DNA from: Arthrobacter alpinus
GTDB taxonomy: Bacteria; Actinomycetota; Actinomycetes; Actinomycetales; Micrococcaceae
Assembly: GCF_001294625.1 (NCBI RefSeq)
Contig: NZ_CP012677.1
Span: 3,844,001-3,908,000 of the forward strand
DNA: 64,000 nucleotides
Direction: 5' to 3'
The notes under the pieces were generated by a model that saw nothing but the letters and a program-made list of their open reading frames with translations, ran no database searches and was not told the origin of the DNA. Positions 47,976 to 53,524 of the stretch are shown here, piece after piece (position 1 is the first letter of the stretch; each line of letters begins with the position of its first letter). Position numbers and translations under genes: made by a program.

Positions 47976-48102
47976 GATTTGACGCAATTCACATTAATTT
48001 CACCGTGACGATAGTGGTCCTCGACACGCCTTACTTATGTAGGCGCCAAACGGCACCGAGCTTGAAGAAATATCCATACCAAGAATTTCGGGAGTGATTA
48101 TT

Positions 48103-48642
48103 TTGACTACTCAGCCTCAGGGAAAGACCCCGGCATCGATTCAGCAGGGCGGGGCAACTCGCCAGAATGATACAAACACCATCACTACCAGCCGGGGCGC
48201 CACCACGGTGGCCGACGGCGTGGTTGCCAAAGTCGCCGGCATCGCCGCGCAGGACATTGCCGGTGTATACGCCTTGGGCGGCGGGGCTGCACGGGCGCTG
48301 GGCAGCCTCCGCGAGGCAGTGGGACAGAAGGACCTCACCCAGGGCGTCAGCGTTGAGGTCGGCCAGACACAGGTGGCCGTGGACGTGACGATCGTGGTGG
48401 AATACCCGCACCCCCTGCAAAAGGTTGCCAACGATGTTCGTGACGCAATCTACGCGGCGGTTGAAGACGTGGTCGGCATGGAAGTCACCGAGGTCAACGT
48501 CGCCATCACCGACATTCACATTTCCGGTGACGATTCAGATGACAAGCACTCCGATGCCAGGCAAGCTGACAACGGTCGCGTCGACAACAAGAACTACGAC
48601 GACTCCGGGGAGCCCCGCACACGGGAAGTCCGAGTTTCATGA
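48103..48642 (+). CDS. Asp23/Gls24 family envelope stress protein
   Basis: The 179-residue protein begins the Asp23 cluster. A polar N-terminus precedes the Asp23 domain (about residues 30-140): TTVADGVVAKVAGIAAQDIAGVYALG, EVGQTQVAVDVTIVVEY and a final TEVNVAITDIHI strand. The last 35 residues are acidic and disordered. In Staphylococcus, Asp23 is a membrane-associated protein held by AmaP whose loss triggers a cell-wall stress response. The start is a TTG at 48103, eight bases after CGGGAG; a GTG at 48094 is the alternative. The next gene overlaps its stop by four bases. Confidence 0.92.
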   Translation: MTTQPQGKTPASIQQGGATRQNDTNTITTSRGATTVADGVVAKVAGIAAQDIAGVYALGGGAARALGSLREAVGQKDLTQGVSVEVGQTQVAVDVTIVVEYPHPLQKVANDVRDAIYAAVEDVVGMEVTEVNVAITDIHISGDDSDDKHSDARQADNGRVDNKNYDDSGEPRTREVRVS

Positions 48643-48830
48643 GCTCGACAACCACCGGAGTCGCCGTAGGGGCGATCCTGGCGATTTCAGCCCTCGCGTT
48701 CGGCTTCTGGGCGATGCTTCTGGTGGCGCTGTTCATGGCCGTCGGAGCGGTCGTGGGGCGAAGCCTGGCGGGTCGGCTGGACGTGCGCGGAGCCTTTGAC
48801 GCGTTGCGCGGTAAACGGACTTCATCATGA
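48639..48830 (+). CDS. DUF2273 small membrane protein
   Basis: The 63-residue protein is two hydrophobic segments (about residues 8-25 and 26-43, nearly continuous) followed by a short basic tail. It matches DUF2273, which is regularly encoded beside Asp23-like genes. It overlaps both neighbours by four bases. A likely role is to help recruit Asp23-type proteins to the membrane, by analogy with AmaP. Confidence 0.88.
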   Translation: MSSTTTGVAVGAILAISALAFGFWAMLLVALFMAVGAVVGRSLAGRLDVRGAFDALRGKRTSS

Positions 48831-49192
48831 GTGCCGGCACGCTGGAAAACAGGCGTGCCGGGCACACCACAATCTCCACCGGGACCATGCAGCGGCTGGT
48901 CGCAGCCATTGCGGCCGACGCGTTCAAGGTGCCGTTGCAGGAGGTACACGCCCGGGTTCGGGACGGGCACGGACAACTCAGCGTCTCACTGGCCCTTGCC
49001 CTTGCCATCGTACCGTTGGCGGAAATTGTCCAAAATGCGCAGGCAGCTGAAGGCGACACCGTCTTTTACCGGGCAGCCGCGGCTAGGGAGACCATCGCCA
49101 AGCGCATCCAAGCACTCGCCGGAACATCGGTGGGACGGGTGGACATCCGCTTCACGGGTGCACATCTGGATAGCAGGGAGAGGGTCAAATGA
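48827..49192 (+). CDS. Second Asp23-like protein
   Basis: The 121-residue soluble protein has the short Asp23-like pattern: HTTISTGTMQRLVAAIAADAF, a strand pair DGHGQLSVSLALAL, then FYRAAAARETIAKRIQAL and the final VGRVDIRFTG strand. It lacks the acidic tail of the first copy. Both ends overlap the neighbouring genes by four bases. It may form mixed assemblies with the first Asp23 protein. Confidence 0.8.
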   Translation: MSAGTLENRRAGHTTISTGTMQRLVAAIAADAFKVPLQEVHARVRDGHGQLSVSLALALAIVPLAEIVQNAQAAEGDTVFYRAAAARETIAKRIQALAGTSVGRVDIRFTGAHLDSRERVK

Positions 49193-49770
49193 GCCAGGCA
49201 ACAATTATTCGACGCATGGGCCGTCGGGAAACACATTCCTCCCGTGCCGTGCTGTCCATTGTGACGGCAGCCGTGCTCCTTGCGGCCGTCCTGTGGCTGG
49301 CCTTGGAGCTGATGCTTTCTGTGACGGGCCATAGAGCATTGTTGATCTCCCCGGTGGAGCTCATGGAACGCACTGCGTCTCTGGGTACAGCAACGCTGCC
49401 ATCGGTTCTTGTGGCAGTGGGAGTGGTGCTCGCCGTGGTGGGGGTGGCGTACGTTCTTGCCGCAATCCTGCCCGGCACTAAACCGCGCCATCTGATCGAG
49501 AACAGCCGCTCCGCCGTCGTGGTTGACCGCGAGGTCCTTGCCTCGGCAATCGCCAGGACGGCACGCACCACATCCCGCCTGGCACCGGAACAAGTCACTG
49601 CCAGTGTTGGACACAGAAGCGTTGAGGTGAGAGTTCACCCGAGCTCGGGCGTGGCTGTGGGAGAATCCGCCGTCCGCGAAGCCGTGGACCGGGAAATCGC
49701 CAGCTACTGCCTGGCAAGGAAGTTGAAGGTCAACGTTGCTGTTGCCTCCCGGGGGGCGGTGGGCATATGA
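49189..49770 (+). CDS. DUF6286 membrane protein with Asp23-like soluble part
   Basis: The 193-residue protein has two membrane helices (about residues 21-43 and 68-90), then a soluble C-terminal half whose ASVGHRSVEVRVHPSSG and REAVDREIASYCLARKLKVNVAV strands and helix resemble Asp23 domains. This fits DUF6286. A cytosolic Asp23-like domain tethered by two helices would make it an anchor for the soluble Asp23 proteins. It overlaps both neighbours by four bases, so it is co-translated with them. Confidence 0.82.
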   Translation: MSQATIIRRMGRRETHSSRAVLSIVTAAVLLAAVLWLALELMLSVTGHRALLISPVELMERTASLGTATLPSVLVAVGVVLAVVGVAYVLAAILPGTKPRHLIENSRSAVVVDREVLASAIARTARTTSRLAPEQVTASVGHRSVEVRVHPSSGVAVGESAVREAVDREIASYCLARKLKVNVAVASRGAVGI

Positions 49771-50369
49771 ACGGCACCCGCCGCGGACTGAACCGTGCAC
49801 TGTTGGCGTTGGTGGGGCTGCTCCTGATCGCAGCAGGACCCCTCGCCGTGCTTGCCGGCAGCAGCCAGGAATTTGCGCAGGCTTGGACCCGCACGGGCAC
49901 CGACTTTTGGGCCCGCGTCCAGGAACAGCTGGCCGCAGCCAAAATTCCGGGGCAAGAGACCAGCTGGTGGACCGTCGCCGTCATGGGTGTACTCGTGGTG
50001 TCCGCGATCCTGCTGGTCTGCTGGATCGTCTCCCAGGGCGGCGGGCGCACCAACCAGCTGGCCAGGGACGACGGCGACGCCGGCACCACAACGGTGGAAA
50101 CCGCCGTCGCGAGCCAAGCCATCAAAGCGGCGCTGGCTGGAAACAAGCAGGTGCTCTCCGCCTCTGTCCAGTCATGGCAGGTCAAAGGAGGCAGCGGGCT
50201 AAAGATCAGCCTGCAAGCCCGCAAGGGTGCCTCGCCCCGGGAGTTGGCTGAGGTCCTTGATGAGCTTGTCAATGGCCTCGATGCCCTCTTGGGCAAAGAA
50301 ATTCCGGTACTCATCCGCATCAAGGCCGGCACCCGGTCGCGGTTTGCCCGCACCGAACGTGTGGCATAG
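49767..50369 (+). CDS. AmaP-like membrane anchor of the Asp23 cluster
   Basis: The 200-residue protein has an N-terminal helix (LLALVGLLLIAAGPLAVLAG), a 55-residue loop, a second helix (VAVMGVLVVSAILLVCWIV) and a cytosolic C-terminal domain with an Asp23-type helix (PRELAEVLDELVNGLDALLG) and strand (IPVLIRIKAG). AmaP of firmicutes has the same two-helix hairpin plus cytosolic part and anchors Asp23. The last gene before the intergenic terminator, it follows DUF6286 with a four-base overlap. Confidence 0.85.
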   Translation: MNGTRRGLNRALLALVGLLLIAAGPLAVLAGSSQEFAQAWTRTGTDFWARVQEQLAAAKIPGQETSWWTVAVMGVLVVSAILLVCWIVSQGGGRTNQLARDDGDAGTTTVETAVASQAIKAALAGNKQVLSASVQSWQVKGGSGLKISLQARKGASPRELAEVLDELVNGLDALLGKEIPVLIRIKAGTRSRFARTERVA

Positions 50370-50416
50370 ATACGCAACGTCAATGAAAACACAACACCTA
50401 TAGCAACGAGAACATT

Positions 50417-50491
50417 TTGGGTGTCGTCGGAGCAACGGTTGGTGGCGTGGTTGTTGCCGCAGTTTACGGCGCAATCAAGGGCCGCAAGTAA
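50417..50491 (+). CDS. Possible glycine-rich micro-protein
   Basis: A TTG at 50417 opens a 24-codon frame, MGVVGATVGGVVVAAVYGAI then KGRK. The small-residue spacing (GxxxG-like) and basic tail would suit one membrane helix with a cytosolic anchor. There is no convincing ribosome site. It sits between the AmaP-like gene and a strong terminator, where a real small gene would fit. Confidence 0.3.
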   Translation: MGVVGATVGGVVVAAVYGAIKGRK

Positions 50492-50620: not shown

Positions 50621-51190
50621 ATGAAGCGCATCAACCCGCCAGCCAGCAGGCTCGCCGATGCCCCTGACGCTGTGCTTGTCGAGCGTGCCAGCGACGGTGA
50701 TGTAGCCGCTTTTGAAACGCTGGCCCGCCGCCATGGCCCCTTGATGCGCGCCTACTCACGGCGCCTCATGAGTTCCCCGGCAGAAGCCGACGACGTCGTG
50801 CAGGAATCGCTGATCACGGCGTGGAAAGAGATCGGCAACCTTCGGGATGGCACCGCCGTCAAAGCCTGGCTCATGCGGATCGTGGGGCATCGGGCGGTAG
50901 ATGCCGGCCGGCGTCGGAAGTTACACAGCAACATCGCAGACCAGCTCGAGCTCATCGACAAGGCGCCCAGCCCCGAACAATCCGCGGTCGCCGGGTCTGC
51001 CCGGCAGGCGCTCAGCCGGGCCTTGGACAAGCTGCCAGAGAAACAAAGACGATGTTGGATTTTGAGGGAGTATGGCGGTCAGTCATATGAGGAGATCGCC
51101 CAGACCTTGGGCATCAGCTCCACCAGCGTGCGCGGCCGGTTGGCACGGGCACGGACCACGCTTATTTCGGAAATGGAGGATTGGCGATGA
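50621..51190 (+). CDS. ECF-type RNA polymerase sigma factor
   Basis: The 189-residue protein has region 2 (FETLARRHGPLMRAYSRRLM, then DDVVQESLITAWKEIGN) and region 4 (LDKLPEKQRRCWILREYGG, then SYEEIAQTLGISSTSVRGRL), joined by a short linker, the ECF arrangement. It should direct polymerase to a stress regulon. The ATG at 50621 lies 13 bases after GGAAGGGAC. The next gene, whose ATG overlaps this stop, carries an anti-sigma-type zinc motif, so regulation by its own partner is likely. Its promoter targets probably include the adjacent Asp23 genes, which is inference. Confidence 0.94.
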   Translation: MKRINPPASRLADAPDAVLVERASDGDVAAFETLARRHGPLMRAYSRRLMSSPAEADDVVQESLITAWKEIGNLRDGTAVKAWLMRIVGHRAVDAGRRRKLHSNIADQLELIDKAPSPEQSAVAGSARQALSRALDKLPEKQRRCWILREYGGQSYEEIAQTLGISSTSVRGRLARARTTLISEMEDWR

Positions 51191-51777
51191 ACCCCACCCG
51201 TGATTGCGGCCGGCGCATCGAGGACCTCAGTGACTACCTAGACACCGGAAGATCAGCCGATGCCGAGCACATTGAGCACTGCCCGCAGTGCCAGGCACGC
51301 CTTGCCGGGCTGCGCAGTTTACAGGCCGCGGCGCGTGACTTACTGGATGACGACGTGGCCTCGGCAGCTGCCGAACCATCCGGCTGGCTTGAGGGCATGT
51401 TGGCAAACCTGCGCCTGGAAACCCGGGCCGGGCGTTCGATTCCGCTTGCCGGGGCCCCCTCCGAGCAGCTGAGCGAGAGCGAGGGTGCCGTGATTGCCCT
51501 GGTGCGCACCGTCGGTGACTCCTTGGGCGGGGTGCTGATTGGTAGGTGCCGCATGGACGGTGATGTCACGGTTTCCGGCGCCCCTGTGGAGGTGAACGTC
51601 AATGTTTCCGCCCGGTACGGCTTCCCCCTGCCATCCTTGGCTGCGGAACTGCGCGCGGCCGTTATGGCTGAGCTTTTGGTTCAGACTGAACTAAATGTTG
51701 CCGCGATAAACGTGGCATTTACTGACATGCGGGCACCGATTGCCGAACCCGGGCACGGAGATGGAGGAGAGCTGTGA
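51187..51777 (+). CDS. Fusion of an anti-sigma-type zinc motif and an Asp23-like domain
   Basis: The 196-residue protein overlaps the sigma factor stop by four bases. Its N-terminus has the zinc-binding anti-sigma signature His28-x3-Cys32-x2-Cys35 (EHIEHCPQCQ) in a short helical domain like those that hold ECF sigma factors inactive. No membrane helix follows. After a linker (about 50-95) comes an Asp23-like domain: GDVTVSGAPVEVNVNVSARY, a helix LAAELRAAVMAELLV and the closing strand LNVAAINVAFTDM. I know ZAS anti-sigma factors and Asp23 proteins separately; the combination suggests sigma release governed by Asp23-type assembly at the membrane. Domain identities are by eye. Confidence 0.8.
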   Translation: MNPTRDCGRRIEDLSDYLDTGRSADAEHIEHCPQCQARLAGLRSLQAAARDLLDDDVASAAAEPSGWLEGMLANLRLETRAGRSIPLAGAPSEQLSESEGAVIALVRTVGDSLGGVLIGRCRMDGDVTVSGAPVEVNVNVSARYGFPLPSLAAELRAAVMAELLVQTELNVAAINVAFTDMRAPIAEPGHGDGGEL

Positions 51778-52112
51778 GTATGGAAGAGGAGATCCGCGAG
51801 CTGGTGCTGGGCGTGGACGGCGTGGCAATCGTCTATTCCGCCGATCCGCTGTGGCTGACGGTTCTCAAACAGGTGGGGGCGGCCCTGTCGCCGGTGGATG
51901 ACCCGGCACAGCTGCCCTTTGTGGTGTGCCTCCGCGATGACGACGGCGGGCGGCAGATCATGCGCGTGCAGGTCCGGATCGGCACCAATGGGGCGGTGCC
52001 CGCCCCGGCGCTGGCTCGCAATGTTGCCGCCGCGATTCGCGTGTTCGTTTCTGCGCGGCAGCCGGAGGTGGGCGTCGTGGCAGCAGTGGAGGTTGCCGCG
52101 ATCGGGGTCTGA
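51774..52112 (+). CDS. Third small Asp23-like protein
   Basis: The 112-residue soluble protein starts with GTG at 51774, overlapping the previous stop by four bases. The pattern ELVLGVDGVAIVYSADPLW, strand MRVQVRIGTNG, helix ALARNVAAAIRVFV and closing strand VVAAVEVAAIG is close to a compact Asp23 fold. The cluster ends here. It may pair with the fusion protein upstream. The family call is by pattern and needs profile comparison. Confidence 0.72.
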   Translation: MSMEEEIRELVLGVDGVAIVYSADPLWLTVLKQVGAALSPVDDPAQLPFVVCLRDDDGGRQIMRVQVRIGTNGAVPAPALARNVAAAIRVFVSARQPEVGVVAAVEVAAIGV

Positions 52113-53239: not shown

Positions 53240-53524
53240 GGATGCGCGGGCGAGGATTTTTGGCATTGCCACGAACCTGCTGCCGTGGCAGCGTCGGCCC
53301 TGGCCGGTGCGCTGCGGAAGCTGTCGGCCGCCGACAGGGAATGCATCCTGCTCTGCGCCTGGGCCGAGCTGAGCTACGAAGGCATAGCAGCGGCCACAAA
53401 AGTCCCCATTGGCACTGTGAGGTCACGACTCAACCGGGCCCGGCGCATCCTCAAAGAGGCTGCCCGAGCGCACCTGAACAACATTGAGGAGACAGATCAT
53501 GGACGAGCTCAAGCTATTGCGTGA
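53240..53524 (+). pseudogene. Truncated sigma factor gene
   Basis: An intact-looking region 4 (LRKLSAADRECILLCAWAEL, then SYEGIAAATKVPIGTVRSRL) runs from about 53285 to 53524. Just upstream, in another frame, is ARIFGIATNLL, the end of a region 2. The bulk of region 2 is gone. Frameshift plus deletion mean the protein cannot bind core polymerase normally. It overlaps the start of a broken CU044_5270-type gene, which is the usual gene order for this sigma type. Confidence 0.82.

Follow-up and report, generated by a model that had tools for sequence, protein, structure and literature searches.

The gene at positions 51187-51777 of a 64,000-nucleotide stretch of Arthrobacter alpinus DNA (assembly GCF_001294625.1, contig NZ_CP012677.1, positions 3,844,001 to 3,908,000 of the forward strand; hereafter the window) encodes a class I-type anti-sigma domain (ASD) fused to an Asp23-like domain. 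On sequence grounds, its product is most likely a soluble protein that switches off the product of the adjacent gene, a stress-response sigma factor of the extracytoplasmic function (ECF) type. Sigma-fusion pairs of this kind were found in several actinomycete families, usually near asp23 genes, many of which carry a shared promoter-like motif. The best explanation, which we hold with modest confidence, is that a cognate soluble anti-sigma factor clamps the sigma factor, that the sigma factor transcribes the asp23 operon, and that the Asp23-like half docks on the Asp23/AmaP layer as the input. Feature coordinates are collected in Table 1.

The first 88 residues of the fusion resemble class I anti-sigma domains in profile comparisons, and AlphaFold2 (AF2) models of residues 1-80 have helices at 11-20, 26-31, 33-62 and 66-79. 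With an ASD-only profile (A3), the best match in the PDB is 3HUG_B (E 7.7e-4), which we take to be RslA of Mycobacterium tuberculosis, followed by DdvA (E 0.14) and RsiW (E 0.56) amid unrelated matches of similar score. In whole genomes the ASD-only profile reaches two proteins that exceed the NCBIfam threshold for RsrA, of which one carries RskA_C and the other zf-HC2; the strong matches that were examined (L122-L134) are fusions too. PF13490 zf-HC2 itself matches only 3/94 family members (E<=1). By profile, the N-terminal domain is assigned to the class I anti-sigma type and appears sequence-related to known anti-sigma factors. The ligand pattern is C7-x20-H28-x3-C32-x2-C35. The H28-x3-C32-x2-C35 part had been read correctly in the preliminary description of this DNA, and C7, not named there, completes the set. 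Of 81 close homologues, 3 shorter than 175 amino acids were dropped; 77 of the remaining 78 retain all four ligands, so the motif is not due to chance.

The C-terminal half had been proposed to be Asp23-like, and profile comparison bears this out. PF03780 matches residues 110-181 close to the Pfam cut-off of 28 bits, scoring 27.9 when proteins are scanned and 29 when the genome is scanned, and matches 84/94 aligned family members at E<=1. An hhalign comparison of this half with Asp23 gives 97.9% (E 4.2e-13, 93 columns), ASD-bearing open reading frames (ORFs) having been removed from the Asp23 set beforehand, as the comparison would otherwise be circular. The lack of a membrane helix in the earlier account also agrees with the hydropathy analysis, in which no transmembrane helix is seen in the fusion (maximum 19-residue mean 1.56, no dedicated helix predictor having been run), as against maxima of 2.45 in the neighbouring DUF2273 protein and 2.86 and 2.93 in the AmaP-like proteins. 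The ATG of the fusion ORF and the stop codon of the ECF sigma gene share bases as ATGA, in different frames, with a GGAGG ribosome-binding site just 5' of the ATG; the stop of the fusion in turn overlaps the start of the 112-amino-acid gene that follows.

A module of sigma factor, fusion and small protein is present in several actinomycete families. Its usual neighbours are asp23-DUF2273-AmaP-like genes, which run either in line with it or divergently. The fusion is preceded by a sigma gene in 58/58 named loci in GTDB genomes, and in 42/58 an asp23 match, again in either orientation, lies in the same stretch. Among full-length fusions, repeat loci included, sigma lies upstream within 500 bases in 134/135, the exception being L130; in a set of 85 full-length rows, including the window's own copy and some repeats, it lies within 150 bases in 82. 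Distinct sigma-fusion pairs among the full-length cases number 101. Nineteen wide stretches (L090-L108, from 17 other genomes) were picked because they hold the module; all 19 have sigma and fusion, and 15/19 have asp23 and DUF2273. In a class-wide sample, 125/394 genomes match the fusion family, mostly through the Asp23 half alone, and among the matches listed 26 genomes, A. alpinus included, match both halves. The small third gene follows the fusion in 9/58 named loci by tblastn and, among the matches listed, in 11 further named loci by hidden Markov model. As both gene orders recur, the linkage of sigma to asp23 is not merely that of one inherited operon. The preliminary description had placed the anti-sigma signature next to an ECF sigma gene, and this context extends well beyond the window, with the sigma pairing fixed and the asp23/DUF2273/AmaP-like linkage frequent. 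One locus with the same gene order, L007 (NZ_JADHDY010000003.1), is on a contig titled Sporosarcina beigongshangi, although it groups inside Arthrobacter; the assembly is probably contaminated or misnamed.

Many of the asp23 genes linked to the module share a promoter-like element. A motif-free search of asp23 upstream regions recovered GTGAC-N17-CGTC in 31 of 76 non-redundant regions, whereas the commonest such pair in five shuffled sets reaches 7. In an alignment of the window with nine Arthrobacter-type loci, CGTGA[CG]G..ACG[CA]CTTA is found in the window and in 8/9, L008 departing in the -35 part. The pattern GTGA[CG]-N16..18-CG[TC]C[TC][TA] occurs in 36/62 linked clusters (0.26 on average and at most 2 in shuffles) and a looser pattern in 44/62 (1.0 on average and at most 6 in shuffles); 15/62 have neither. 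The pattern is present in 1/16 of a distant set, and the motif in none of nine asp23 clusters without the module in the fetched stretch, including the second cluster of the A. alpinus genome (L089). Four genomes (G000, G281, G456 and G545) have two asp23 clusters each, with the motif at the linked one only. In G532 the module is unlinked, and the motif is found at one of two asp23 clusters, about 155 kilobases from the module. This distribution points to the asp23 promoter as a target of the sigma factor, which would drive the asp23 operon, also in trans. Two genomes speak against this: G519 lacks the motif at both its linked and its unlinked cluster, and G195 lacks it at one of two linked clusters.

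Next to the element in the window, a palindrome of the TGTGA-N6-TCACA type lies at 47978-47993 with one mismatch, ending 11 bases before the -35-like part; it is perfect in some Arthrobacter relatives, and is presumably a CRP/GlxR-like site.

The zinc signature stands for the window protein and its close homologues, but is not needed across the family. Among the 101 distinct members, H/C/C is kept in 46, five have CxCC with another residue in place of the His, 41 retain only the last cysteine and nine have no ligand. Two changes account for the zinc state on a tree from which the ASD columns were left out, made by a quick method with many forks unresolved. Micrococcaceae and more distant families retain the ligands, and Microbacteriaceae as well as two neighbours (L033, L047) have lost them; the sigma pairing is still present in the Microbacteriaceae members seen without one or more ligands. 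This loss makes the Asp23 half likelier as the common sensor, and the common input of the family is more likely to be this half than the zinc site, though a filter admitted only members with both halves, and the constancy of the Asp23 half partly reflects this selection.

These counts bear on a rather unlikely explanation, in which the protein would be an RsrA-like redox or zinc switch: C7, H28, C32 and C35 would sense, thiol oxidation would expel zinc and free the sigma factor, and the Asp23 domain would only position the protein at the membrane. The ligand spacing is of the RsrA type, and both the near-complete retention of the ligands in close homologues and the reach of the profile to RsrA proteins fit such a switch. 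However, the sigma pairing persists although fewer than half of the members keep H/C/C, and the Asp23 half persists in ligand-less members too, within the limits of the filter just mentioned. As the tree needs only two changes, clades that bear the zinc ligands could still use such a switch. The many members without zinc ligands would also suit a fusion that acts as an adaptor or activator, bringing sigma to the membrane rather than inhibiting it, but the profile recognises the domain as of anti-sigma type, and class I anti-sigma domains, such as that of RseA, need no zinc; we consider this reading very improbable.

In seven loci of Curtobacterium (L049, L051, L052, L054-L056 and L058), the sigma-fusion pair has no asp23 match in its vicinity, and the fusion has lost every one of the four ligands. 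The interval from sigma to its upstream neighbour contains a GTGAC-CGTC motif on the minus strand in 7/7; L049 and L052 also have one directed towards sigma.

In the favoured explanation, the N-terminal domain would clamp the ECF sigma factor encoded upstream, as its family suggests. Free sigma would transcribe the asp23-DUF2273-AmaP-sigma-antisigma operon from the GTGA[CG]-N16..18-CG[TC]C promoter, as the motif distribution points to, and the Asp23-like domain would be the input, docking on the Asp23/AmaP layer, itself a product of this operon, at the inner face of the membrane. The loop would most likely sense demand: with enough intact layer, the docked anti-sigma factor would keep sigma off, and where the layer is short or disturbed, undocking would loosen the clamp and the operon would be induced. 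The condition of the Asp23 layer may in this way determine when the cell produces more. The opposite sign, with free Asp23 titrating the anti-sigma factor away, is nearly as likely. A more far-reaching form, which is possible but put forward tentatively, makes the anti-sigma factor a built-in subunit of the Asp23 polymer: it would co-assemble through its Asp23-like half with Asp23/AmaP filaments beneath the membrane, and the state of the lattice would gate sigma directly, without a membrane-spanning sensor or proteolysis. Lineages that keep zinc would add a thiol switch as a second input, and Microbacteriaceae would have the lattice input only. Gating of sigma by the lattice is a testable idea.

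Asp23 proteins are tied to envelope homeostasis, and their molecular function is unclear, according to PMC6954212. In the same paper, AmaP anchors Staphylococcus aureus Asp23, which forms filaments, to the membrane, and the cell-wall stress response is induced when either gene is deleted. As in S. aureus, asp23 in the window occurs together with a membrane-anchor gene; unlike there, the AmaP-like proteins score below the AmaP cut-off, and the cluster has its own ECF sigma and anti-sigma factors. The deletion results bear on an unlikely explanation with the same anatomy and promoter as the favoured one, namely titration by free Asp23 or AmaP, in which each new Asp23 subunit would pull the fusion off sigma, with positive feedback and an all-or-none response. 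In S. aureus the deletions induce rather than silence the stress response, which speaks against titration, though this induction need not run by way of a similar regulator. The anti-sigma factor with its Asp23 domain in the same operon would offer a read-out, in that whatever the Asp23/AmaP layer senses would show in the activity of sigma. The loop is made testable by the conserved promoter motif together with the genome in which the module is unlinked.

RslA, like the fusion, has an HxxxCxxC anti-sigma domain; its PDB entry names it a probable conserved membrane protein, whereas the fusion has an Asp23-like domain in place of the membrane part. ChrR also has a C-terminal sensory domain. RsrA and ChrR are given as soluble zinc anti-sigma factors in a 2022 review (PMC8999054); the fusion is likewise soluble with a zinc-type anti-sigma domain, and differs in that its C-terminal domain is Asp23-like and that some members of its family lack the zinc site. 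The arrangement had been thought not to be described. However, the same review, citing the Casas-Pastor 2021 classification, mentions predicted soluble anti-sigma factors of the Asp23 family beside ECF286 and ECF292 sigma factors. These are, like the fusion, soluble, encoded next to an ECF sigma gene and predicted to be anti-sigma factors, as far as the review describes them. The fusion is real and conserved, and is probably a functional anti-sigma factor, soluble and of a kind that had been predicted before. In the literature searched, no further relevant paper was found for ECF286 or ECF292 by name, titles and abstract openings gave no experimental study of a pair of Asp23-type anti-sigma and ECF sigma factors, and the Asp23 passages of PMC9769785, PMC12029717 and PMC8144471 describe no such pair.

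Table 1. Features of the asp23-sigma-fusion region, in window coordinates.
Feature	Position	Strand	Evidence and remarks
ECF-type promoter-like element GTGAC-N17-CGCCTTA	48005..48033	+	upstream of asp23; aligned in Arthrobacter relatives; same form in other relatives
Asp23 family protein	48094..48642	+	PF03780 88.9 bits; GTG start 48094, alternative TTG 48103
DUF2273 small membrane protein	48639..48830	+	PF10031 41.2 bits
121-amino-acid Asp23-like protein	48827..49192	+	no Pfam family; family profile 95.6% to Asp23 (hhalign)
AmaP-like membrane protein 1	49189..49770	+	NF033218 32.8 bits (below cut-off 55); hydrophobic stretch 2.86
AmaP-like membrane protein 2	49767..50369	+	NF033218 30.4 bits (below cut-off 55); hydrophobic stretch 2.93
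ECF sigma factor, 189 amino acids	50621..51190	+	PF04542 57 bits, PF08281 61.5 bits, TIGR02937 104.7 bits
Fusion gene, class I-type anti-sigma domain + Asp23-like domain	51187..51777	+	ATG start, 196 amino acids
Anti-sigma domain, residues 1-80, ligands C7, H28, C32, C35	51187..51426	+	AF2 models; profile match to 3HUG_B
Asp23-like domain, residues 96-183, order helix-strand-strand-helix-strand	51472..51735	+	PF03780 at residues 110-181; hhalign; AF2
Small third module gene, 112 amino acids, perhaps Asp23-like	51774..52112	+	overlaps fusion stop; hhalign to Asp23 only 55%

The Asp23 kinship of the family of the 112-amino-acid gene is doubtful on the profile comparison. In several relatives, the interval from the second AmaP-like gene to sigma is occupied by a CsbD gene and a complete GlsB-type gene. 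In the window, positions 50387-50491 hold an apparent remnant of a GlsB/YeaQ-type (Transgly_assoc) gene, a short piece resembling the GlsB end that has no Pfam match by itself, and no CsbD gene was seen there. The second asp23-DUF2273-AmaP-like cluster of the genome (L089, 3668345-3668668) lies just 3' of tRNA-Glu, tRNA-Asp and tRNA-Phe genes, with no sigma or fusion near it in a 14-kilobase stretch. Downstream of the module, an isolated sigma-70 region 4 fragment of 79 amino acids (53285-53524, PF08281 49 bits) is followed by an overlapping ORF of 163 amino acids. The ORF of the fragment has no region 2 match, and a second ECF sigma gene may have decayed here.
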